In this document: piece by piece, positions 14,611-26,232 of the stretch
Position numbering within the stretch: position 1 is the first letter of the stretch
How the letters are laid out: every line of letters starts with the position of its first letter
Source: Acidimicrobiaceae bacterium
GTDB lineage: Bacteria; Actinomycetota; Acidimicrobiia; Acidimicrobiales; Aldehydirespiratoraceae
Length of the DNA: 36,016 nt
Assembly: GCA_028819505.1 (NCBI GenBank)
Contig: JAPPLH010000119.1
Span: 1 to 36,016 of the forward strand
Direction of reading: 5' to 3'
Program-made: the position numbers and the translations under genes
The notes under the pieces: generated by a model
Seen by the model: the letters and a program-made list of their open reading frames with translations, nothing else
Told to the model about the DNA's origin: nothing
Databases searched by the model: none

Positions 14611-14958
14611 TCAGAGACCCAGATGCAGCCTTATGGCGTCGTCGATGCGGTCCATGAGATCCAGCGGGACGAGACCCGTCGCTTCGCCTACTCGCTCGAC
14701 TGCGACCGATCTGATCTGCTCCGCCTGGACCTTGGAATCCAATCGCAGGCCGCTCTCGGTGGCGGCCAAGAGCACCTGGAACGGATGGACCACTTCCGTG
14801 TTGGACGTCGCCGGAACCACAGTCACGACCCCGCGCCCTAGCAGTGCTGCGATCGTGTTGGCACCGTCGTTGCTCACGATGACGGCCGGGCGATTGCGAG
14901 CGGCCTCAGCGCCCGCCGCGGGATCAAGGTCAACGAAGCGGATCTCTCCCCTTCGCAT
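14611..14958 (-). CDS. MazF/PemK-family toxin (endoribonuclease)
   Basis: This 115-residue PemK/MazF fold protein starts MRRGEIRFVDLDP and has the conserved NRPAVIVSND segment, VTVVPATSN and, late, VQAEQIRSV, as in MazF toxins. The family cuts mRNA, usually at short single-stranded motifs. The ATG (14956-14958) overlaps the TGA of the antitoxin gene as ATGA, the usual antitoxin-first order. The length is normal and no truncation is seen. The cleavage motif cannot be predicted. Confidence 0.88.
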   Translation of the reverse strand: MRRGEIRFVDLDPAAGAEAARNRPAVIVSNDGANTIAALLGRGVVTVVPATSNTEVVHPFQVLLAATESGLRLDSKVQAEQIRSVAVERVGEATGLVPLDLMDRIDDAIRLHLGL

Positions 14959-15182
14959 CAGTCCTCACCCAGACCGTCACCGACGACCGTGTCCCAGACC
15001 TTGTCCTCGCCGTCTTGGACCCATTCGGCAAAGGCGTCCGCGTAGTGATGCGAAAGCTCGGAGGCTCGCAGGAGCCGTATGGCCCGGTGCAGAGCGGCCG
15101 ACCGCGAGGCGATGCCGTGGCATCGCGCGTAGTCGTCCAGAAACTCGACATCGCTCTCGGGAATGCTGACGCTGACCTTCAT
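14958..15182 (-). CDS. ribbon-helix-helix antitoxin, MazE-like partner
   Basis: The 74-residue protein opens with MKVSVSIPESDVEFLDDYA, the ribbon-helix-helix pattern of a DNA-binding strand then helix, followed by SRSAALHRAIRLLR. The acidic C-terminus (DGEDKVWDT...) would wrap the toxin. ATG at 15182 is preferred to an upstream in-frame TTG at 15200. TAGTAT lies 7 nt ahead of it, suggesting a leaderless mRNA. It is expected to repress its own operon through the inverted repeat just upstream. Confidence 0.85.
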   Translation of the reverse strand: MKVSVSIPESDVEFLDDYARCHGIASRSAALHRAIRLLRASELSHHYADAFAEWVQDGEDKVWDTVVGDGLGED

Positions 15183-15185
15183 AGA

Positions 15186-15217
15186 AGCAATACTACCCAA
15201 GTAGGACGCCTATTGCT
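15186..15217 (-). promoter_or_regulatory. MazEF-like promoter with nested inverted repeats (operator)
   Basis: AGCAATA (15186-15192) and TATTGCT (15211-15217) are perfect inverted arms 18 bp apart. CTAC-CCAA-GTAG (15193-15204) is nested inside. The minus-strand -10 TAGTAT (15190-15195) lies within the left arm and ends 7 nt before the antitoxin ATG. This is the expected layout for an autorepressed toxin-antitoxin promoter. Confidence 0.6.
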
Positions 15218-15282
15218 ACTACCGGCAGGACGAGGAGAGGGTCGAACCCCACCACCACCGCCCGATGCCGGCGCTCTGCTCC

Positions 15283-15906
15283 CTACCGGACCTGGCGCAG
15301 ATGGACGGTGGCCACCATCTGGTCGAAGGCGTCGGGATCGAAGCCTGCGCCGGCCCAATCGCCCAAGAACTCGTGTTCGGGATGAGCGGGATCGGCGAGC
15401 GCGGCGCGGAGATGGTCGTAGCCGTAGACCCCGCCACAGTCCTCCGGCGGGCAGGCCCGCTCCCCCGCAGTGCATTTCGGGTAGCGCACATCGCGCGACG
15501 GCGCCTCGATCGCCTCGACGACAACGTCGTGCTCCCAGCCGTCGCCGAAGTCGTACGACCACCGCAGCTGCGACCCGACGCGGGGCAGCAGCTGTTCCAG
15601 TTTGATGTTTCGCTCGTCGATGATGTCGGTGCTGAATTCGTCTGACCGCCCGATGCGGAGGTCGGCGACTCCGAACATGTGCAGGTGGTAGCCCTCCCAG
15701 CCCATGACGGCTTCGAGCATTCGGTTGAACTTCGGCAGCTTCGTCTCCGACGGCACTACGAACCGCCGCCACACCATCGGCTCCACATACAGCAGATCGA
15801 TCCGCAGCGCATGGACACTCGGACCGCCCAGGAACGGGCGGAATGTCCCAGGAACAGAGCTGCCCTCAGTCATCGGTTCCGAGTATGCCGGGTATGTCGG
15901 GGCCAT
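15283..15906 (-). CDS. plasmid pRiA4b ORF-3-like family protein
   Basis: The 207-residue protein matches the pRiA4b ORF-3-like pattern: LRIDLLYVEPMVWRRFVVP, then FNRMLEAVMGWEGYHLHMF, YDFGDGWEHDVVVE, YPKCTAGERACPPEDCGGVYGY, and EFLGDWAGAGFDPDAFD near the end. The two cysteines in the CPPEDCGG segment and the earlier one could bind a metal. The family occurs on plasmids and in IS1096-type contexts; its biochemical role is not established. ATG at 15906 is chosen because AGAGGA lies 8 nt upstream; ATG at 15873 is an alternative. The gene stands alone between toxin-antitoxin-like modules. Confidence 0.85.
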   Translation of the reverse strand: MAPTYPAYSEPMTEGSSVPGTFRPFLGGPSVHALRIDLLYVEPMVWRRFVVPSETKLPKFNRMLEAVMGWEGYHLHMFGVADLRIGRSDEFSTDIIDERNIKLEQLLPRVGSQLRWSYDFGDGWEHDVVVEAIEAPSRDVRYPKCTAGERACPPEDCGGVYGYDHLRAALADPAHPEHEFLGDWAGAGFDPDAFDQMVATVHLRQVR

Positions 15907-16016
15907 CCCCGAGATCCTCTGATCCACGACTGCGCCTCATCGCTACGGATGCCCATTGCCCGCCCCGCGGAGACGCCGAAGGCTAGATGAGCGACGAAGT
16001 TGCCGCTGGCGGGTGC

Positions 16017-16559
16017 TCACCACTGCGGGAGCAATCCTTGCTCATGCGCCCATGAGAACAGGCTCCGTCCATCGGTCGGTAGCCGCATGCCCGTCGCCCG
16101 AAGTTCATCGACCAATTGTTCAGCCGCCGAACGCCTCAGTTCGCCGCGTCGGACTCCCTGGACGACGAGCCATAGTGAGCCGTGGGCCATGATGCCGTCC
16201 CGTTGTGCTATGCGGCTCGCAGCGCGTTCGTCGATGATCGCCACGTCCCCATGGACGCCCGCCCACGCCAGTACGGCTGCCTCACCGGTGTTCTCCCTCG
16301 AACCGCCGCCCAGCAGCGTCTTGTAGCGAGCGAAGGCGGAGAGCTCGTGTGTCTCCGAGAGTTCAACCGACTCCAGCCAGTCCGCGGTCAGTACGTCGGC
16401 GAGGGCCGGTATCGCCGCAGTGCCGGCACGAATCTCGATTCGCACTTCCACTGGCGCAATGCAGCGAAACGGATCGACGAGCGACTCGAGTGCCGGCAGC
16501 CTTCCGGCGCAGGCGAAATGGCTCAAACATGTAGTGTCGAAGATCAGCGATGGACTCAC
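16017..16559 (-). CDS. PIN-like domain protein, likely toxin or effector partner
   Basis: This 180-residue protein begins LIFDTTCLSHFA, a typical PIN strand with Asp8. It also has Glu93 in TGEAAVLAWA and Asp110 in AIIDERAAS, spaced as in the acidic metal-binding site of PIN ribonucleases. The GTG start (16557-16559) overlaps the TGA of the XRE-ImmA gene as GTGA, so the two are one unit. Pairing of an XRE-COG2856 protein with a PIN-like protein fits predicted toxin-antitoxin pairs. RNase activity is inferred from the fold only. Confidence 0.75.
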   Translation of the reverse strand: MSPSLIFDTTCLSHFACAGRLPALESLVDPFRCIAPVEVRIEIRAGTAAIPALADVLTADWLESVELSETHELSAFARYKTLLGGGSRENTGEAAVLAWAGVHGDVAIIDERAASRIAQRDGIMAHGSLWLVVQGVRRGELRRSAAEQLVDELRATGMRLPTDGRSLFSWAHEQGLLPQW

Positions 16560-17644
16560 GCGAGCGGCTCGAACTCGCGCCTCCATGCTTCGAGCGGCAC
16601 CTCGTCCTGTGCGGGGAGCTCCCAACGATCGACGGTGCCCCACAGGAGTTCCACGGCGCGCGCTTCGGTGAGCTTCCCACGCCGATAAGCCGCGAGAACC
16701 CGTCTCCCGTAGAGCGGCGGCACGCTAGGCGGGACGAGTTCGGCAACCCAGCGCTCCCCCAACTCGATGAAGTCCGCCCGAGAGGGCGGGTGACTTGCGA
16801 GATCCTCGCGAGTCCCGGCATCGATGACGCCGACGTTCCGCAGTTGGGAGCATACGGCGGTCCAACTCAGCCGATAGCGCACCGCTGCCGCAACCGCCGC
16901 GAGACGGAGATCACGCTCGAACTCTGACCTGATCACTTCTGCGTCACGCCGGGGCAGAAGCAGATGGATCGCGAAAGCATTGATCAGCATCTCGTTCTCA
17001 TCCTGCGGAGAGAGCCCGACCTCCGGCGCGTACGCGTCCTGGAACACATGATGACCGAGTTCGTGAGCGAGATTAAAGCGGCGCCTCCCTGGCTCGAGCG
17101 CACCGTTGATGACTGCCACACCGACATCACCGACCGCCACATACGCGGCATCGCCACCACCCTCGCTGAGGTCGAGGGAGAACGCGAACAGGCCTGCTAG
17201 CTCAGCGCATCGTTGGAGGCCATGGAGAGGTCCGGCCGGCACCCCGAGCTTGACCCGCAACTCCGCAGCGGCTGCCTCGGACTCCTCGACGCTCGACGGA
17301 GGATCCATCACAATCCTCGTGATCTGTGGGAGTTCACCCTCGGCAGACAGAAAGTCGATGTCGCGAGCGATCCACTCAACCCGCGAGTCCAGCATCCGCG
17401 ACCGTCCTCCTACGACTGGATCTGACCGCCGACTCAAGACCGCTGGAGGGGATGCTCGGAAGAACCAGTCCACAGGCCGGTCGAGTGCTTCGGCGAACAC
17501 CACGAGTTCGGCCGCGGCGAGCCTCCTGGTTCCTGCCTCAATCTTCGCGATCACCGTCCGTCCGAGCCCCGTCGCCGCGGACACCTGCTCCTGTGTCAGC
17601 CCTGCGAGCTCGCGCGCCTCTGCGATCCGGCTGCTCAGCTCCAT
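16556..17644 (-). CDS. XRE-family regulator fused to ImmA/IrrE metallopeptidase
   Basis: This 362-residue protein has an N-terminal helix-turn-helix (RIAEARELAGLTQEQVSAAT, then GRTVIAKIEAG, residues 6-39) and a COG2856 zinc peptidase site, FNLAHELGHH, with HELGHH at 194-199. NEMLINAFAIHLLLPR follows and contributes the usual third-ligand Glu. Such proteins bind their own promoter and may be triggered to cleave a repressor or antitoxin. The gene is coupled by GTGA to the PIN-like gene, suggesting a stress-responsive or toxin-antitoxin unit. ATG at 17644 gives the normal N-terminus; TACAGT (17653-17658) lies 8 nt upstream as a possible -10. Confidence 0.87.
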   Translation of the reverse strand: MELSSRIAEARELAGLTQEQVSAATGLGRTVIAKIEAGTRRLAAAELVVFAEALDRPVDWFFRASPPAVLSRRSDPVVGGRSRMLDSRVEWIARDIDFLSAEGELPQITRIVMDPPSSVEESEAAAAELRVKLGVPAGPLHGLQRCAELAGLFAFSLDLSEGGGDAAYVAVGDVGVAVINGALEPGRRRFNLAHELGHHVFQDAYAPEVGLSPQDENEMLINAFAIHLLLPRRDAEVIRSEFERDLRLAAVAAAVRYRLSWTAVCSQLRNVGVIDAGTREDLASHPPSRADFIELGERWVAELVPPSVPPLYGRRVLAAYRRGKLTEARAVELLWGTVDRWELPAQDEVPLEAWRREFEPLA

Positions 17645-17652
17645 GGCACCAG

Positions 17653-17658
17653 ACTGTA
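17653..17658 (-). promoter_or_regulatory. possible -10 of the XRE-ImmA/PIN operon
   Basis: TACAGT on the minus strand ends 8 nt before the ATG at 17644, so the message would have almost no leader. The imperfect inverted pair CGTGTG / CGCACG just upstream (about 17665-17682) could be an XRE operator. Both calls are by eye. Confidence 0.3.
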
Positions 17659-17719
17659 GCATCGTGCGATTCTGGCACACGGCGCATCGAGGTGCCGGAT
17701 CCGTCCCTGCGGGACCGCC

Positions 17720-19738
17720 CTATACCAGAAGGGGGTCGGTGAGGATCTCCACCAGGGCGGGGCCCTGGTGGTCGAGGGCTGCCTCGACGGCGTCGTCGAG
17801 CTGGTCGGTGGACATGACCCGGAAGCCTCGAGCGCCGCACAGCTCGGCGAACGCTGCGAAGTCGGGGTTGTGCAGCGAGGTCTGCCACACGTCGAGCTCG
17901 GCGGCTCGCTGCTCCTTGGAGATCTTCCCCAGCTCGTTGTTGTTCAACAGAACGTGGGTGATGTCCATGCCGTAGGAGGCCGCGGTGGTGAGCTCCATGG
18001 CGTACTGGCCGAACCCCCCGTCGCCCGATACCGACACCACCGCCCGGCCGGCGTGCTCGGGTCGGCTCTGGGTGGCGGCCCAGCAGCCCATGGCTGCGGG
18101 CAGCGCAAAGCCGATGGAGCCGAGGTAGCCCGACATCAGCACGGTCTGGCCCCTGGTCTCGAAGTAGCGCCCGAAGGAGTAGGCGTGGTTGCCCACGTCG
18201 ACCGGCACGATGGCGTCGGCCGGGACCAGCCGGCTGAGGGCGTCGAACACCGACGCCGCATTCAGGCCCTCGCCCCGGTCGTCGGCGCGGCGGCGGGCCT
18301 TCTCGTCGCGCCAGATGGACCAGCGCTCGGCCACCTCTCCCCGCAGGTCCTGACAGTTCCGGTCGGCGGGTATCGCCTCGCCAAGGGCTCTGGCGGCCAC
18401 CCCGACCTCAGCCAGCACCGGCACGTCCACCGGGTGGAACCGGCCCAGGGCCATGGGATCGAAGTCCACCTGCACGGTCGGCTTGTAGTCGGCGATGCCG
18501 GTGTGGTTGGCGAATGACACCCCGAAGGTCAGCAGCAGGTCGGCCTCGTTCATGAACCAGCTGGCGATGGGCGTGCCCGAGCGGCCCAGCACCCCGCAGG
18601 CCAGCGGATGGCGGTCCCCGATCAGTCCCTTGCCCTTGAACGTGGTGGCCACCGGCGCCCCGATCAACTCGGCGAGGGCGACGATGCCGGCCATTGAGCC
18701 GCGGGCACCGTGGCCGACGATGATCAGCGGCCGGGCCGCTCCGGCCACCGCATCGACCGCCGCGGCCAGCGCCTCGGCGGGTGGCTCCACCGCCCGCGAA
18801 CCGGTGCGCCCCTGCGGAGAGCCCGGTGAACCGGCCGGGCCTTCGGGCGCCGGCAGGACCTGCACCTCGTCGGGAAGCACCAAGTGGCCCACATCCCGCT
18901 CGACGACGGCCGTCTTGCAGGCCAGCGTCATGAGTTCCGCGTAGTTGGACCCGGATTGCACCGTGGCCGAGTAGCGGGCCACGTCGGCGAAGGCGGCCGA
19001 CAGGTCGGTGTCCTGGAAGGCGCCCCGCCCCCGCACCGCGGAGGGCACCTGCCCCGACAAGGCCAGAACCGGGGCCCGGTCCATCTTGGCGTCGTAGAGG
19101 CCGGTGAGCAGGTTGGTCGAGCCGGGCCCGGCGATGGCGAAGCAGGCGGCTAGCCCACCGGTGAGCTTTCCGTAGGCGCAGGCCGCGAACGAGGCCGCCC
19201 CCTCGTGGCGGATGCCGATGAAGGTCAGGTCGCCCCGGGCCTCGGCGGCCCGCACCGCGTCGGCGAAGCCCAGGTTGGAGTGCCCCACCATGCCGAAGAC
19301 ATGGGTCACGCCCCAGGCCGCCATGGTCTCCACCAGCATGTCGGAGACGGTGCGTTCCCGGGGTCGCTCAACGGGCAGGGCCACGTACACGCCGTCGGCC
19401 CGCACCTCGGTGCGGTACGCGGCCGGGGCGTCGTCGAAAGGCGGCGGGGGCCGGCCGTTCTTGGGCGAGTAGTCGTAGCCGTGCCACGGGCAGCGCAGCC
19501 ACCCGCCCTCGATGGAGCCCTCCCCCAGCGGGCCGCCCTGGTGCGGGCAGGCGTTGCCGAGGCAGCCGTAGCCACCGTCGGCGGTGCGGGTGACGCACAG
19601 GCTCTCGTGCCCGACGGTCACGGTCATCGCCCGGCCCTCGCCCATCTCGTCGAGGTCGACCAGCTTGTGCCAGGCGTACTCGCCGTCGGGCAGCGCCGGC
19701 TCGGCGACGCTCGGTGTCGTGTCTGGGTTAGGGACCAC
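17720..19738 (-). CDS. Rieske [2Fe-2S] domain fused to ThDP-dependent enzyme (acetolactate synthase/pyruvate oxidase superfamily)
   Basis: This 672-residue protein has two parts. Residues 20-125 form a Rieske ferredoxin-like domain with C64-P-H66 and C83-P-W-H86, the full CxH...CxxH cluster motif. From about 128 on, a three-domain ThDP enzyme follows: SDMLVETMAAWGVTHVFGMVG, Glu179 in RHEGAASFAACAYG (cofactor-activating Glu), the middle domain around PLIIVGHGARGSM, and GDGGFGQYAMELTTA at 572 onward ending in LLNNNELG, the ThDP-Mg motif. The enzyme should act on a 2-keto acid, possibly passing electrons to or through the Rieske cluster. The GTG at 19738 is chosen because AGGAG lies 8 nt upstream; in-frame TTG 19774 would add 12 residues. 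It is divergent from the VOC gene next door. Confidence 0.9.
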   Translation of the reverse strand: MVPNPDTTPSVAEPALPDGEYAWHKLVDLDEMGEGRAMTVTVGHESLCVTRTADGGYGCLGNACPHQGGPLGEGSIEGGWLRCPWHGYDYSPKNGRPPPPFDDAPAAYRTEVRADGVYVALPVERPRERTVSDMLVETMAAWGVTHVFGMVGHSNLGFADAVRAAEARGDLTFIGIRHEGAASFAACAYGKLTGGLAACFAIAGPGSTNLLTGLYDAKMDRAPVLALSGQVPSAVRGRGAFQDTDLSAAFADVARYSATVQSGSNYAELMTLACKTAVVERDVGHLVLPDEVQVLPAPEGPAGSPGSPQGRTGSRAVEPPAEALAAAVDAVAGAARPLIIVGHGARGSMAGIVALAELIGAPVATTFKGKGLIGDRHPLACGVLGRSGTPIASWFMNEADLLLTFGVSFANHTGIADYKPTVQVDFDPMALGRFHPVDVPVLAEVGVAARALGEAIPADRNCQDLRGEVAERWSIWRDEKARRRADDRGEGLNAASVFDALSRLVPADAIVPVDVGNHAYSFGRYFETRGQTVLMSGYLGSIGFALPAAMGCWAATQSRPEHAGRAVVSVSGDGGFGQYAMELTTAASYGMDITHVLLNNNELGKISKEQRAAELDVWQTSLHNPDFAAFAELCGARGFRVMSTDQLDDAVEAALDHQGPALVEILTDPLLV

Positions 19739-19904
19739 TGCCGTCACTCCTGAATGGTTCCGTGGAAGCGTCAACCTACATTGGCCGCCGAGGCGGCGGA
19801 GTCGTTGCCGGTGCGTTCTCCCCTACTTTCTCCCACCCGCGACGTTGCACCTATCGTTGGTCGACCACCGACCCGAGCGCCGCGACCGACCAGCGGAGGC
19901 CCAG
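19739..19904. promoter_or_regulatory. divergent intergenic region with a 14-bp palindrome
   Basis: The 166-bp gap between two divergent starts must hold promoters for both. The clearest element is GCCGCC-GA-GGCGGC (19784-19797), a dyad that might be an operator. A minus-strand AGGAG supports the Rieske-ThDP start, and GGAGG supports the VOC start. No strong -10/-35 pair is visible. Confidence 0.35.
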
Positions 19905-20777
19905 ATGACCGACCCGACCTACCAGCTTCACCATCTCTGCATCTTCGAGAAGCAGCCCCGCGACGCCATGTGGAACTGGCTGCGCTGGCACCACGCCATC
20001 CCGGCCTACTACTGGGAGGGGATCCCCGACCTGCACCACACCGGCGAGGGCGGCGTGGACTACACGTTCCTGGCCTGCGGCGCCCCCTTCCAGATGCAAC
20101 TGGAGTCGCCGCCCTACCAGTTCGAGTACGAGCGCAACTGGTTCGCCGAGCACGACTCGGGCATCAACCACATCTGCTGGATCGTGCCCAGCGCCTACGA
20201 CACCGTCGACCATCTCCAGTCCAACGGCGCCACCGTGGCCATGCCCTACGAGGAGTTCGGCGACACCTACCACGGCTTCGTGGCCATCGACCCCGAAGGC
20301 CGCTGGGTGGAGATCATGTCGTACCCGGGCGAGTTCAAGACCCCCGACGTGGAGTTCCGACCGGTGGGGCATCCCGGCCTGCAGACCCTAGGCGTGGTGC
20401 AGCTGTGCCGCGACCTCGACAGCCAGGTCGAGTGGTACACCGATGTGCTCGGCCAGCGGATCATCCTCGACGCCCGCAGCGCCAACGACGGCCTCGTGTA
20501 CCTGGCCGACCACACCTACGAGGGCCGCCAGTGCGTGAACGCGCTGGCCACTCCCAGCACCGAAGCCGAGCACGCCCTGATGGAGCGCCACGGACCGGTG
20601 ATATCCACCGTGCTGTACCAGGCCGGCGACGTGGAGGCCGCCTGGCGCGACGCGCTGGCCGCCGGCTTCGGAGAGGTGGCCGCCCCTGTGCACGACGACC
20701 GCATCGGAGCCCGCACCGGCTACCTGCGCGAGCCCAGCGGCAACCTGGTGCAGGTGCGCGAGCGACTGGCTGCATAG
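19905..20777 (+). CDS. two-domain VOC-superfamily protein (extradiol dioxygenase-like)
   Basis: This 290-residue protein has two vicinal-oxygen-chelate modules. The N-terminal one keeps a metal triad: His9/10 (LHHLCIF), His89 (INHICWIV) and Glu136 (GRWVEIM). The C-terminal one (LGVVQLCRDLDSQVEWYTDVLG to GNLVQVRE) has lost the corresponding residues, so one active site per chain is likely. Extradiol dioxygenases of the usual type keep the triad in the C-terminal module instead. The reaction could be ring cleavage, epimerisation or another metal-enolate step. GGAGG lies 8 nt before the ATG. It abuts the next VOC gene with no gap. Confidence 0.8.
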   Translation: MTDPTYQLHHLCIFEKQPRDAMWNWLRWHHAIPAYYWEGIPDLHHTGEGGVDYTFLACGAPFQMQLESPPYQFEYERNWFAEHDSGINHICWIVPSAYDTVDHLQSNGATVAMPYEEFGDTYHGFVAIDPEGRWVEIMSYPGEFKTPDVEFRPVGHPGLQTLGVVQLCRDLDSQVEWYTDVLGQRIILDARSANDGLVYLADHTYEGRQCVNALATPSTEAEHALMERHGPVISTVLYQAGDVEAAWRDALAAGFGEVAAPVHDDRIGARTGYLREPSGNLVQVRERLAA

Positions 20778-21245
20778 GTGCGAATCAGGGGGATCCACCA
20801 CGCCGGTCTGGTGGTCCGCGACCTCGACGCGGCGGTCGCCTTCTACGGCGCGCTGCTCGATATGGAGATCATCGGGCGGGACCGGTGGCGGGCCCCGGAG
20901 CCCAACGTCGACAGCGCGGTGGGGCTGGTCGGGTCGTCGGCCGACGGTGTGATGATGCGGGGTTCCAACAGCTACCTCGAGCTGTGGCAGTACCACGCCC
21001 CGACCCGGGTCGGCGACGACCCCGCTGCTCGGGGCGCCCACGAGCTGGGGCTGCGCCACCTCGCCATCGAGGTCGACGACGTGCCCGCCGCCCTCGACCG
21101 TTTCGTCGAGCTGGGCGGCACCCGCATGGGCGACCCGCTCCGCTTCGACCACGGCGGCGACGCCGTCTACTGCCGCGACCCTTTCGGCACCATCATCGAG
21201 TTCATGTCGGTCGTGGGTACCCAGGACTCCCTCGACGACCTGTAG
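20778..21245 (+). CDS. single-domain VOC-superfamily protein
   Basis: This 155-residue VOC protein has one beta-alpha-beta-beta-beta pair and candidate ligands His7/8 (IHHAGLVV), Glu68 (YLELW), His94 (LRHLAIEV) and Glu141 (GTIIEFM). A His-Glu-His-Glu set is that of glyoxalase I and methylmalonyl-CoA epimerase rather than ring-cleavage enzymes, which use His-His-Glu. The reaction is unknown. GTG follows directly on the TAG of the previous gene, so the two are translated together. Confidence 0.82.
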   Translation: MRIRGIHHAGLVVRDLDAAVAFYGALLDMEIIGRDRWRAPEPNVDSAVGLVGSSADGVMMRGSNSYLELWQYHAPTRVGDDPAARGAHELGLRHLAIEVDDVPAALDRFVELGGTRMGDPLRFDHGGDAVYCRDPFGTIIEFMSVVGTQDSLDDL

Positions 21246-21290
21246 AACGGCCGGTAACGGTAGAGGCGGGCCGCGACGAAGGGAGCCTCC

Positions 21291-22433
21291 ATGAACGAGC
21301 CCGATCCCACCCGGGGCGGGGCGATGCTGCTCGAGGACCCGGACTTCCTGGAGCACTGCTACCGCCGGGTTCTGGGCGAGCTGGGCTTCTCGGCCGAGCA
21401 CGCCGAGGTGGTGGCCCGCTGCGTGTCCGACGGGGACCGCAACGGCAAGCTCACCCAGGGGATGGGCGTGTTCGAGATCCCGGTGCTGCTGGCCCGCACC
21501 GGCACCATGGACGTGACCGCGGTCCCTGAGGTGGTGGACGAAGGACCGGCCTGGCTGGTGATCGACGCCCGCCGGTCCTCAGGCCAGTGGGCCATCACCG
21601 TGGCCACCGAGGCGGCCATCGCCAAGGCCCGCGAGCACGCCATCGCCATCGCCTTCGTGCGGGACTTCAACGACGCAGGCGCCTTCGGCACCTACGTCCG
21701 GATGGCGGCCCGGGAGGGCATGATGGCCATGGCCACCAACAACAGCCTGCCGCTGGTCTCACCGTGGGGAGGGATGGAGAACATGCTGTCGGGGGCGCCC
21801 TTCGCGGCCGCGTCGCCCGGCGGCGAGCACCGGCCGATCGTCAGCGACATCCAGGCCATCGAGGTACACGACGGCGACTTGAGCGAGGCGTACTTCCAGG
21901 GCAAGCGACTGCCGGGACCGTTCCTGGTCGATCCTGACACAGGCGAACTCACCGACGACCCGGCCCCCTACTTCAAGCAGATGGAGGACTACGGCCGGAT
22001 ATCGGACTGCGAGGCGCCGTCGGTGTTCGGCTCGCCCCGCCTGTACGCCTTCAACCTGTTCACCGAGATGCTGGCCGGGATCATCAACCCCGGCGCTCGC
22101 CTCAGCCCCGAGATCGCGGGACCCCCGTCCTACTGGTTGAAGCCCCGGGACGAGGCCCTCACCGGCGGCGCCTGCGTTATCGTCATCGACCCGTCCCACT
22201 GGATGCCGGCCGATGAGGCCGGCCGCAAGTCGGACCGGCTGGTCGAGGCGGTGAAGGGGGCCAAGCGGCGCCCCGGAGTCGAAGAGATCTTCCTGCCCGG
22301 CGAGCGGGGCTGGCGCGCCATGGACTCCGACGGCCCGGTGGAGATCCTGCCGGCCCACTGGGAGTCGTTCGTGCAGATAGTCGAGAGCGTCGACTTGGAC
22401 ATCGACCGCCTCCGAGCCGAGTTCGCGGGCTAG
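21291..22433 (+). CDS. Ldh2-type (malate/L-lactate dehydrogenase family) oxidoreductase with altered active site
   Basis: The 380-residue protein has the Ldh2 layout: an N-terminal helical part, MAMATNNSLPLVSPWGG (nicotinamide-binding region) near 150, then FNLFTEMLAGIINPGARLSPE and LPGERGWR toward the end. Most family members have a DSHG motif near residue 45-50 and a catalytic His in a (N/S)HFGAAGYY motif. Here the first position reads GDRNGKLTQGMG and the second DFNDAGAFGTY, so both His residues appear replaced. Either the substrate differs from 2-hydroxyacids or catalysis relies on other groups. GGGAG lies 8 nt before the ATG. It sits within the VOC genes. Confidence 0.8.
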   Translation: MNEPDPTRGGAMLLEDPDFLEHCYRRVLGELGFSAEHAEVVARCVSDGDRNGKLTQGMGVFEIPVLLARTGTMDVTAVPEVVDEGPAWLVIDARRSSGQWAITVATEAAIAKAREHAIAIAFVRDFNDAGAFGTYVRMAAREGMMAMATNNSLPLVSPWGGMENMLSGAPFAAASPGGEHRPIVSDIQAIEVHDGDLSEAYFQGKRLPGPFLVDPDTGELTDDPAPYFKQMEDYGRISDCEAPSVFGSPRLYAFNLFTEMLAGIINPGARLSPEIAGPPSYWLKPRDEALTGGACVIVIDPSHWMPADEAGRKSDRLVEAVKGAKRRPGVEEIFLPGERGWRAMDSDGPVEILPAHWESFVQIVESVDLDIDRLRAEFAG

Positions 22434-22457
22434 GTCTGCAGCCGCTATGACGGTCCG

Positions 22458-23453
22458 GTGATGGACTTCCGCTTCGACCACGTCGGTTTCCTGACCCCCG
22501 ACGTGGACTACAGCTTCGGCGTGTACCGGGCGCTGGGCTGCCAGTTGACCGAGCGGACCTACCGCCGGGGCAGCCACGACGTGGCCTACGGCGGAGCCGG
22601 GACCGACGTGCTGCTCGAGTTCCAGGGCCCGCCGCTGCTGCGCGAGTCCGAGGACTACCTGGCCCGCCAGCCTTGGAGCATCGAGCGGGTGGCGCTGGTG
22701 TGCGATGACGTGGAGGCGGCCTACGCCCGGCTCATGGCGGCCGGCGTGCCGTCGGCCTGGGAGCCGGAGCCGTTCGCGGTCGACGGGGTGACCCTGGCCG
22801 TGGCCGCGGGAGTGTGGTCGCCCGAGGGACTCATGATCGATCTGGTCGAGCACCGCGACGTGGCCGTTCCCCGGCCCGCCCGGGGCCCCCGGGACGACTT
22901 GTCCCTGCATCATGTGTGCTTCGTCACCTCGGATCTGGCCCGGGCCGAGGCGTTCTGGGTCGAGCACTTCGGGCTGGTCAAGACCTACGACTTCACCGCG
23001 CCGCTACCTGGCGGCGGCAGGCAGGGGTTCGTGATGCTCAGCGACCCGTTCTTCGACGCGGCCGGCCACGAGTTCAGCCTGGAGATCATCGGCGGCGCCT
23101 TCGACACCATCGACGGGCCGGTGTTCGAGCGGCGGGGCAGCTGCTACGACCACATCTGCTTCACGACCGGCGACGTGGCCGGGACCTGGCAGCGGGCCGT
23201 CGATCGGGGCGTGGAGCCGCTGAGCGAGCCGGCCTACTATCCCGAGTACGACAGCACCATCGCCTGGCTCTACGACGCCGACGGCACCCATATCGAGCTG
23301 ATGGACCCGGTGCCGGCCGATCTGATGGTCGACGCCCACCGCCTCGGCCGGTGCGCCAACGGCTGGGTGGACGACTGGCAGCGCAATCCGGCCGTGCTCC
23401 CTCGCCGGGGAGACACCGGTCTGCAGGTCCGCCGCAACCCCAGCAACCAATGA
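22458..23453 (+). CDS. two-domain VOC-superfamily protein (extradiol dioxygenase-like)
   Basis: This 331-residue protein has an N-terminal VOC module (FDHVGFLTPD) that has lost some ligands. The C-terminal module has a full His-His-Glu set: His151/152 (LHHVCFVTSD), His232 (YDHICFTTGD) and Glu280 (THIELMDP). This is the classical arrangement of extradiol ring-cleavage dioxygenases and 4-hydroxyphenylpyruvate dioxygenase relatives, and it mirrors the VOC gene at 19905. A non-haem Fe(II) or Mn(II) dioxygenase is plausible. Either GTG 22458 or ATG 22461 could start it; Shine-Dalgarno is weak. The TGA overlaps an ATG (23450-23453) that opens the micro-ORF chain leading to the alcohol dehydrogenase. 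Confidence 0.82.
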   Translation: MMDFRFDHVGFLTPDVDYSFGVYRALGCQLTERTYRRGSHDVAYGGAGTDVLLEFQGPPLLRESEDYLARQPWSIERVALVCDDVEAAYARLMAAGVPSAWEPEPFAVDGVTLAVAAGVWSPEGLMIDLVEHRDVAVPRPARGPRDDLSLHHVCFVTSDLARAEAFWVEHFGLVKTYDFTAPLPGGGRQGFVMLSDPFFDAAGHEFSLEIIGGAFDTIDGPVFERRGSCYDHICFTTGDVAGTWQRAVDRGVEPLSEPAYYPEYDSTIAWLYDADGTHIELMDPVPADLMVDAHRLGRCANGWVDDWQRNPAVLPRRGDTGLQVRRNPSNQ

Positions 23454-23488
23454 CCGCCGGCAGGCCGCAGACTGGAGGAGGCCGATGA
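23450..23488 (+). CDS. 12-residue micro-ORF coupled to the VOC gene
   Basis: It reads MTAGRPQTGGGR. Its ATG forms an ATGA with the VOC stop, and its TGA (23486-23488) forms an ATGA with the next micro-ORF's ATG at 23485. The strong GGAGGAGG near its end would serve as Shine-Dalgarno for that next frame. It is related to the following micro-ORF by tandem duplication. Confidence 0.4.
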   Translation: MTAGRPQTGGGR

Positions 23489-23520
23489 CTGCCCGCAAGC
23501 CACCGACCGAAGGAGGCCAT
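23451..23520 (+). repeat. degenerate 35-bp tandem duplication carrying ATGA and Shine-Dalgarno
   Basis: Units 23451-23485 and 23486-23520 match at 26 of 35 positions. Each begins TGAC, has GCC-GC-A in the first third and ends in GGAGGCC. Each therefore repeats a stop/start overlap plus a Shine-Dalgarno, and the duplication has kept all junctions in ATGA register. Confidence 0.75.
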
Positions 23521-23529
23521 CGCACATGA
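23485..23529 (+). CDS. 14-residue micro-ORF coupled to the alcohol dehydrogenase
   Basis: It reads MTARKPPTEGGHRT. GGAGGAGG lies just upstream. Its TGA (23527-23529) overlaps the alcohol dehydrogenase ATG as ATGA, and AAGGAGG within it is that gene's Shine-Dalgarno. The peptide resembles the preceding one (MTA, then a shared R/K-P and T-x-G-G pattern). It may be only a translational bridge. Confidence 0.45.
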   Translation: MTARKPPTEGGHRT

Positions 23530-24560
23530 AGGCCGCCATCTACGACGCTCCCGGCCTGCCACTGCGCATCGCCGAAGTCCCCGATCCTCGCCCCGGACCG
23601 GGTCAGGCGGTGATCAGGGTGTCGGCGTGCGGGGTGTGCGGCTCCGACCTGCACGCCACCACCGCGGAGGGCGACCTGGCCCGCCGGGGCGCGGTGCTGG
23701 GCCACGAGGTGACCGGCGAGATCGTCGAGATCGGTCCCGAACCGGCCGGCGACTGGGCGGTGGGCGACCGGGTGTACGCGATCCCGATCGGATCGTGCGG
23801 GCGCTGTCCCTACTGCCTGCTCGACCGTCCCGAGGAGTGCCCGGAGCAGCTCACCTTCGGGGCGCTGGGCCCCGACGAACCCGACGGCGCCTACGCCGAG
23901 TATCTGACCGTGTCGCTCTCGGACCTGCTGGCGGTTCCCGAAGGCGTGTCCATGGACGTGGCCGCATTGTGCGAGCCGCTGGCCACCGGGCTGGTGTGCG
24001 TGCGCCAGGCCGCGCTGGAGATCGGCGACCGGGTGCTGATCCTGGGCGGGGGCCCCATCGGCCAGGCCGTCACCGTCTGGGCCCGGTTCCTCGGCGCTCG
24101 CCGGGTGGTGGTGTCGGAGCGGGTCGAGCACCGCCGGGAGCTGGCCCTACGCTTGGGGGCGACCGACACCATCGAGGCCGGACCGGACACCGATGTCGCC
24201 GCCCGCTTCGTCGAGCTGACCGGGGCCGAGCCCGACGTGGTGATCGAGGCGGTGGGCCGGCCGGGGATGCTCAACGCGGCCATCGCCGCGGTCCGGCCCC
24301 AGGGGAGGGTGGTGACCGGCGGGGTGTGCATGGAGCCGGACTCCTTCGACCACCTGCTCGGCTACTTCAAGGAGCCGGTGATCCGCACGGCCCGCGTCTA
24401 CACCAAGGCCGACAACGAGTTCATCATGGAGATGATCGCGTCCGGCCGCATCGACCCCGCACCGCTGATCTCGCACCGCATCGGCCTGGATGCGCTGCCG
24501 GAGGCCTTCGAGGCGCTGCGCACGCCCACCGACCAGTGCAAGGTCATGGTGATGCCGTAG
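23526..24560 (+). CDS. zinc-dependent alcohol dehydrogenase (medium-chain dehydrogenase/reductase)
   Basis: This 344-residue MDR enzyme has the catalytic-zinc Cys in CGVCGSD and GHEVTGE, the structural-zinc cysteines in GSCGRCPYC and the following PEECPE, and the cofactor-binding LGGGPIGQ followed by an acidic residue region (VVSERVEH). It should oxidise an alcohol or reduce an aldehyde/ketone with NAD(P). It most resembles sorbitol/threonine dehydrogenase-type MDRs, but the substrate is open. The ATG at 23526 has AAGGAGG 9 nt before it. It is reached through two ATGA-linked micro-ORFs from the VOC gene. Confidence 0.92.
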   Translation: MKAAIYDAPGLPLRIAEVPDPRPGPGQAVIRVSACGVCGSDLHATTAEGDLARRGAVLGHEVTGEIVEIGPEPAGDWAVGDRVYAIPIGSCGRCPYCLLDRPEECPEQLTFGALGPDEPDGAYAEYLTVSLSDLLAVPEGVSMDVAALCEPLATGLVCVRQAALEIGDRVLILGGGPIGQAVTVWARFLGARRVVVSERVEHRRELALRLGATDTIEAGPDTDVAARFVELTGAEPDVVIEAVGRPGMLNAAIAAVRPQGRVVTGGVCMEPDSFDHLLGYFKEPVIRTARVYTKADNEFIMEMIASGRIDPAPLISHRIGLDALPEAFEALRTPTDQCKVMVMP

Positions 24561-24597
24561 TGGACCACCCCGTCCTGCAGATCGCGGCTCGCTAGCC

Positions 24598-26232
24598 ATG
24601 ACGGCAGAGCGGGGCTCCTCCGAGGGGCAGTGGTTCACCTGGCTGGAGCGGATCGCCGCTGACGGCCCCAGCGCGGACCCGGAGGCGTTGGAGATCTGGG
24701 GCTACACCGACCGGCCGAGCTACGCCCCCGGCGAGACGGTGGGCCTCCACGTGTCCACCACTGCGCCGACATGGGGCTTCGAGGTCTGGAGGGACGGGCA
24801 CGCCTTCGAGAAGGTCCACGAGCAGAGCGGCCTGGCCGGAGCTCACCATCCGATCGGCGACGACGTGGTCGCGTCGGGCTGCGGCTGGCCCCGGGGCGCC
24901 TCATTCGAGGTCCCAGCCGGCTTGGCCACGGGCGGCTACATCGTCGTCCTGCGGGGCGAGCGGGACGGCCAACGGGTGACCCAGGACGCCTTCTTCGTGC
25001 TGCGGCCGTCAGCACCCGGCCGGCGCTCGAAGCTGGCCATGGTGGCGGCCACCTACACCTGGCAGGAGTACAACGACTGGGGCGGGGGCTGCGGGTACTT
25101 CTCCGACGAGTACGTCGACCACACCGCCGACCCGCTGGAGGTGCGTGAGAAGAGCTTCAAGCCACGCCTGAGCTTCGACCGGCCGTGGTCGCGGGGCCTG
25201 ATCCGCACCCCGGTCGGTGCTCCCCGCCTGGCCCAACCTCCCCCGCCGGTGGGTGCGGCGGTCGGGATCCCGGCGGCGGACTGGGCCATCAGCAATGGCT
25301 ACTCGGTGTGGACGGTGGCGGCCGGCTGGGCCCGCTACGACGCGCTTATGTTCCGCTGGCTGGAGGCCAACGGATACGAGCCCGAACTGGTGTCGCAGTG
25401 GGACCTCGACCGCGACCCAGGAGTGCTCGACGCCTACCAGGCGGTGGTCACCACCGGCCACGACGAGTACTGGACGGCCGCGGGCCGCGGTGTCCTCGAT
25501 CGGTTCATCGAGCGGGGCGGCCGCTACGCCCGCCTCGCGGGCAACATCGTCTGGCAGGTGCGCATGGAGGACGATCTGCGCACCCAGGTGTGCCACAAGT
25601 ACGCGGCCCACGCCGACCCCGAGCGCCACAGCGACGACATCGACCAGCGCACCGGGGCGTTCGAGGCGCACTACATCGACCGGCCCCCGGTCACCACCTT
25701 CGGCGCCAACGGCTTCCGGGGCGTGTACTCACGGATGGGTGGCCTGTCGCCCAGGGGCGCGGGCGGGTTCATCGTGTACCGGCCCGGCCATTGGGCCTTC
25801 GACGGGGCCGACGTCTACTACGGCGACGTCGTGGGCGGCGGTGTGCCCCTGGTGGGCTACGAGACCGACGGCGTGGCATACACCTTCCGCCGGGGGCTCC
25901 CCTATCCCACCGGCGACGACGGCGCCCCCCGAGGCCTGGAGATCCTGGCGTTGACCCCGGTGACTCTCGAGGAGGAGGACCACGGCCAGGCCGGGAACCT
26001 GATCTCGATCGCCGACGGCGACCTGGCCTTCGCGGCCGAGGCCCTCTTCGGCGAGGACACGCCGGAGCACCGCGACCGCATCCGCTACGGCAGCGCGGTG
26101 ATCACCGCCATGGCCAAGGGCTCAGGCGAGGTCTTCTGCGCGGGAACCACCGAGTGGTGCCACGCCCTGGCCCAGGGCGAAGTGCAGGTCGAGGCCATCA
26201 CCCGCAACGTCCTCAACCGCTTCCTCGACTAG
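24598..26232 (+). CDS. N,N-dimethylformamidase beta-subunit-like protein
   Basis: The 544-residue protein matches the DMFase large-subunit pattern: an N-terminal beta-rich part (EIWGYTDRPSYAPGETVGLHVS), then MVAATYTWQEYNDWGG, then the core VVTTGHDEYWTAAGR, RYARLAGNIVWQVR and FVYRPGHWAFDG-like segments. DMFases hydrolyse small amides at a mononuclear iron held by two tyrosines and a carboxylate; the GHDEYW tyrosine is a candidate ligand. The usual small alpha subunit and the large laminin-like insertion are not visible here, so this is a shorter homologue whose substrate may be another amide. Its end overlaps the NTF2-like gene in a CTAG. Confidence 0.82.
   Translation: MTAERGSSEGQWFTWLERIAADGPSADPEALEIWGYTDRPSYAPGETVGLHVSTTAPTWGFEVWRDGHAFEKVHEQSGLAGAHHPIGDDVVASGCGWPRGASFEVPAGLATGGYIVVLRGERDGQRVTQDAFFVLRPSAPGRRSKLAMVAATYTWQEYNDWGGGCGYFSDEYVDHTADPLEVREKSFKPRLSFDRPWSRGLIRTPVGAPRLAQPPPPVGAAVGIPAADWAISNGYSVWTVAAGWARYDALMFRWLEANGYEPELVSQWDLDRDPGVLDAYQAVVTTGHDEYWTAAGRGVLDRFIERGGRYARLAGNIVWQVRMEDDLRTQVCHKYAAHADPERHSDDIDQRTGAFEAHYIDRPPVTTFGANGFRGVYSRMGGLSPRGAGGFIVYRPGHWAFDGADVYYGDVVGGGVPLVGYETDGVAYTFRRGLPYPTGDDGAPRGLEILALTPVTLEEEDHGQAGNLISIADGDLAFAAEALFGEDTPEHRDRIRYGSAVITAMAKGSGEVFCAGTTEWCHALAQGEVQVEAITRNVLNRFLD

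Follow-up and report, generated by a model that had tools for sequence, protein, structure and literature searches.

The gene at 17720-19738 of the window (the whole 36,016-nucleotide stretch of Acidimicrobiaceae DNA that was analyzed) encodes a Rieske [2Fe-2S] domain fused to a pyruvate oxidase-like, ThDP-dependent enzyme. Because this fusion is widespread and often lies beside a Rieske-tagged flavin enzyme, it is most likely one half of a putative, undescribed two-part electron-transfer system. The new element is this partner, a second Rieske-tagged protein with an FMN/[3Fe-4S] domain that is encoded near the fusion, often only a few bases away. No described enzyme of the Rieske-ThDP architecture was present in the libraries searched. 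The fusion was also not described in the literature searched, which took in few subscription journals; the two most promising papers pairing the two words concerned separate enzymes or a mere reference citation.

Domain architecture of the fusion protein

The features of the locus are:

17720..19738, minus strand: Rieske-ThDP fusion gene, 672 aa, GTG start, stop codon at 17720-17722
19373..19672, minus strand: Rieske [2Fe-2S] domain with CPH-X16-CPWH ligands
19451-19672, minus strand: Pfam core of the Rieske domain, to which the structural model adds closing strands to about residue 122
17723..19354, minus strand: ThDP enzyme part (PYR, central FAD-type and PP domains), 544 aa
19747..19751, minus strand: AGGAG motif resembling a ribosome-binding site, 8 nt before the GTG at 19738

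The gene is a single unbroken frame. An alternative longer frame (P0001, 684 aa) starts at an upstream TTG at 19774, and Pfam residue numbers are given in P0001 numbering. The Rieske domain spans residues 35-108 (E 1e-15; PF00355 score 57.8 bits against a cut-off of 20.3) and contains all four cluster ligands in the segment CPHQGGPLGEGSIEGGWLRCPWH (CPH-X16-CPWH). TPP_enzyme_N (142-258), TPP_enzyme_M (337-464), and TPP_enzyme_C (526-677) follow with E values of about 1e-30 to 1e-33, and their profiles are covered nearly end to end. The catalytic Glu is present in RHEGA and the GDG...NN Mg/ThDP motif is complete. With these domains and motifs the ThDP part belongs to the ThDP-dependent POX/AHAS superfamily and is homologous to pyruvate oxidase, PQO, and AHAS. 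An AlphaFold2 model built with 30 homologues has a mean pLDDT of 88 and a pTM of 0.86. The final Rieske strand closes near residue 122, the PYR domain's first helix begins near 131, and the inter-domain linker is therefore short. A first-pass annotation had claimed a complete CxH/CxxH Rieske domain fused to a complete POX/AHAS-type enzyme with both ThDP motifs, and both domains and their fusion are real: they share one frame here and occur in the same order in homologues. That annotation mentioned neither the partner gene nor the spread across phyla.

The nearest folds are Corynebacterium glutamicum PQO, LpPOX, PoxB, and AHAS, with TM values over the query of up to 0.72, and PoxB and LpPOX are the best sequence matches in a PDB profile search at E 1e-20. 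The fusion reaches none of the NCBIfam equivalog cut-offs. Its scores are 371 bits against 742 for PRK08611 and 296 against 792 for PRK09124 (pyruvate oxidase/PoxB), and 269 against 538 for the AHAS equivalog TIGR00118 (acolac_lg). It shares the PYR-central-PP fold, the catalytic Glu, the FQ motif, and GDG..N with C. glutamicum PQO (9ev3-9ev6) and Escherichia coli PoxB (3ey9/3eya), but is only about 27-28% identical to them and adds the N-terminal Rieske domain. The alignment with PoxB ends at about PoxB residue 526-532 of 572 with few query residues beyond, and the last ~40 residues of PoxB are therefore absent; the fusion lacks the C-terminal membrane/quinone-binding tail of PoxB/PQO. LpPOX (1pow, 2ez4) has the same fold and ThDP motifs but no Rieske domain. 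AHAS shares the fold and the central domain, and the GxSFxNHTG segment of the fusion resembles the GxRFDDRVTG motif of AHAS; in contrast to AHAS, the fusion carries a Rieske domain and scores half of the family cut-off. The 2-oxoacid:ferredoxin oxidoreductases are alike only in the working principle of coupling ThDP chemistry to an iron-sulfur cluster. Pfam detects no POR-type domain in the fusion, only the TPP_enzyme_N/M/C and Rieske-type families, and the cluster is a Rieske [2Fe-2S] rather than [4Fe-4S].

Conservation and distribution of a single Rieske-bearing clade

The Rieske ligands are all present in the aligned fusion homologues. The distance from CPWH to RHEG is 89-92 residues in 104 of the 105 homologues measured, with a single outlier at -35. 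The clade is marked by G[MI]VGHSN in 106/106 sequences, which makes the GHSN loop invariant, by LGKI[ST]KEQ in 101/106 (the other 5 frames did not match the pattern), and by Glu179 and FQ at 241-242. TPP_enzyme_M, the central domain, is intact and keeps its GxGAR motif, and the equivalents of LpPOX Arg264 and Glu483 are retained. The position of LpPOX Phe479, mapped through the LpPOX F479W chain (2ez4), is Phe in PoxB as well but Lys in the fusion clade; therefore, the substrate or the electron path may differ from those of the pyruvate oxidases. The Lys and a His in the active-site motifs suggest a substrate more acidic than pyruvate. In haloarchaeal members, the second Asn of the Mg motif is replaced by Asp.

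The first-pass annotation had proposed looking for the same domain order across genomes, and this order recurs in relatives, on plasmids, and in a broad scan of contigs. Matches were found in 43 of 149 relatives; most are full-length, have the domains in this order, and are 57-94% identical, and three are partial. Five plasmids (four haloarchaeal, one mycobacterial) carry copies at 57-60% identity, annotated merely as "thiamine pyrophosphate-binding protein". A scan of the contigs of 84,980 species gave at least 529 genome-contig loci with relatives of the fusion in over ten phyla. Among 80 of these loci are Actinobacteria, Acidobacteria, Planctomycetes, Myxococcota, Gemmatimonadota, Cyanobacteria, Proteobacteria, Nitrospirae, Bacteroidetes, Chlorobi/Ignavibacteria, Chloroflexi, Verrucomicrobia, and others. 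The scan was queried with Rieske-motif patterns and is thus biased toward Rieske carriers, so that the frequency of Rieske-less forms cannot be read from it. An unbiased test used the ThDP part alone as the query against 296 genomes of the phylum. The matches split into a group of long frames at ≥59% identity and a group of mostly shorter frames at ≤40%. Reading upstream revealed the Rieske motif in 7/7 tested members of the first group and 0/21 of the second. Across the homologues, those with at least 57-59% identity always bear the Rieske domain and those at or below 40% never do. In a midpoint-rooted tree, the 87 tips that bear the Rieske domain form one monophyletic group with respect to 21 others (support 0.96). 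Hundreds of full-length homologues rule out a frame or annotation artifact or a chance fusion. A phage origin was considered and set aside, as no match was found in 50,697 phage records. The window genome contains a further Rieske match, which lies in an open frame of 677 aa (L008:1501-1749; contig C151:2754-3002).

A Rieske-tagged glutamate synthase-like partner

At 40 of 85 loci, in at least 10 phyla plus haloarchaea, a Glu_synthase (FMN) domain protein is encoded within 8 kb of the fusion. This count leaves out one weak match (33%) and three hits that fell on the fusion gene; neighboring genes at genome-contig loci were predicted with a simple script. About half of the 85 loci have no partner within 8 kb, and several of those are short contigs. 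Pfam analysis of examples places an N-terminal Rieske domain on the partner in most cases. The partner resembles glutamate synthase GltB (1ea0, 1ofd) in its FMN/[3Fe-4S] domain, with the C-x5-C-x4-C [3Fe-4S] ligands and GGTGAAP kept, but differs in having no glutaminase domain and in carrying the N-terminal Rieske or a double CDGSH. The two genes are separated by 2-26 nt in 13 of the 19 near-relative pairs measured. Among the relatives, 26 have both genes, 7 the partner only, 17 the fusion only, and 99 neither (p 8e-12, uncorrected for kinship). The phylum sample contains 5 with both, 4 with the fusion only, and 2 with the partner only, and the partner is also present on 3 of the 5 fusion-bearing plasmids. 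Halorubrum salinarum is one cultured haloarchaeon with both genes. In the window genome the partner is on another contig, C5, beside a MacB-type ABC transporter (L179:7696-9303). In a congener (L188:4545-8385) a 95%-identical partner directly follows a 91%-identical fusion gene; the pair thus looks split in the window genome, where the contigs are fragments and the distance is uncertain.

The putatively paired [2Fe-2S] modules are Rieske and Rieske, with CDGSH in one lineage. In an Escarpia endosymbiont (L081:7731-11498), a CDGSH-Rieske-ThDP triple fusion adjoins a CDGSH-tagged glutamate synthase-like protein. Two CDGSH motifs replace the Rieske domain of this partner and the ThDP protein has gained a CDGSH region, one case in which the [2Fe-2S] modules of both proteins changed together. 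Vibrio plasmids encode a CDGSH-type partner but, in the stretch examined, no fusion gene; in one such plasmid gene, close to a Dps gene, two CDGSH motifs are fused to a Glu_synthase domain (L199:6689-8239).

Other neighbors vary. A Rieske-tailed, MsrQ-like heme-b membrane protein, with its Rieske domain at the C terminus, occurs at 14 of 85 loci, and a ~254-aa protein found at 14 loci accompanies it in 14/14. At L106:5344-7986 the membrane protein has neighbors of 156, 254, and 130 aa, none with a Pfam match. DUF5996 (17 hits) and a cation:proton antiporter also recur, and the copies on haloarchaeal plasmids are surrounded by genes for MerA, DsrE, pirin, TauE, and cupin proteins. In the window, the region between the fusion gene and ABC genes (14614-17680) contains a PemK/MazF-like toxin gene preceded by a small ORF, together with a pRiA4b ORF-3-like gene and an HTH plus IrrE-peptidase gene; the ABC genes directly follow the fusion gene in a congener (L181). 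On the other side, genes for glyoxalase-fold proteins, Ldh_2, a dehydrogenase-like protein, and a DMFA2_C protein form a divergent cluster at 19905-26229. This cluster adjoins the fusion gene in two close congeners only, and for that reason the window's own neighbors were not used to assign function.

Proposed electron path

Known ThDP oxidases, to our knowledge, deliver electrons either to FAD, from which they reach oxygen or quinone, or, in the ferredoxin oxidoreductases, directly to [4Fe-4S] clusters. The invariant ligands, the near-fixed spacing, and the Rieske- or CDGSH-tagged flavoprotein partner make an electron-transfer role for the Rieske domain likely, as judged from sequence. The fusion would be a soluble, FAD-containing, pyruvate oxidase-like enzyme whose ThDP part would decarboxylate a 2-oxoacid, probably other than plain pyruvate. 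Electrons from the ThDP intermediate would pass, most likely through FAD, to the protein's own Rieske [2Fe-2S] cluster, which would replace the membrane/quinone docking tail of PoxB as the electron exit. The cluster would then dock with and pass single electrons to the separate Rieske-tagged FMN/[3Fe-4S] partner and, in some lineages, perhaps also to the Rieske-tailed MsrQ-like protein. An oxidative 2-oxoacid decarboxylase with a Rieske exit to the Glu_synthase-like partner is put forward at even confidence. The electron-relay role itself is the best reading of the Rieske domain, with the balance equally poised, because the ligands are conserved, the spacing is near-fixed, the PoxB tail is absent, and the [2Fe-2S] module of the partner changed in concert once.

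The first-pass annotation had the electrons leave "without the usual flavin route". Its Rieske-ThDP fusion and likely electron-transfer role stand, but the flavin-free path does not fit a complete central FAD-type domain with GxGAR and the Arg264 equivalent in a protein whose nearest folds are FAD enzymes; a path from ThDP through FAD to Rieske is simpler. The placement of FAD on this path is suggested by retention of the central domain and by relatives that depend on FAD. Direct transfer, with the central domain an empty or ADP-binding relic and a radical intermediate reducing the cluster, is unlikely, even though the Phe479 position near the ThDP site is a conserved Lys and one-electron carriers do accept electrons from ThDP in the 2-oxoacid:ferredoxin oxidoreductases.

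Rieske domains can also be structural or regulatory, and the ThDP superfamily includes nonoxidative carboligases such as AHAS, in which FAD is merely structural. The protein could accordingly be a nonoxidative carboligase like AHAS or GCL, both of which hold FAD without net redox, or a nonoxidative decarboxylase, with the Rieske domain as a redox or iron/oxygen sensor gating activity or assembly. The ThDP part matches AHAS well too and the haloarchaeal plasmid setting is stress-like, but the partners that recur resemble redox enzymes and bear Rieske or CDGSH modules, and the closest characterized relatives, by fold and by bit score, are oxidases; this explanation is the strongest competitor and still a rather improbable one. 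Electrons might instead flow in reverse, from a membrane or ferredoxin donor through the Rieske domain into a reductive ThDP reaction. MsrQ takes its electrons from the quinol pool, and its heme-b relative at some loci would provide such a source, but this membrane protein is missing from most loci and we know of no reductive reaction of POX-type enzymes, which leaves reverse flow very improbable.

A broader proposal is offered tentatively and is weaker than the relay itself: a widespread two-protein system in which electrons from a 2-oxoacid would pass through paired [2Fe-2S] modules to a glutaminase-less FMN/[3Fe-4S] enzyme, coupling decarboxylation to a reduction. If true, a POX-type enzyme with a built-in Rieske cluster would be a further route for electrons off the ThDP intermediate, one that extends from Actinobacteria to haloarchaea and is paired with another flavoenzyme bearing a Rieske tag. 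Hundreds of genes currently annotated only as "thiamine pyrophosphate-binding protein" or "glutamate synthase-related protein" would also gain a function open to testing.
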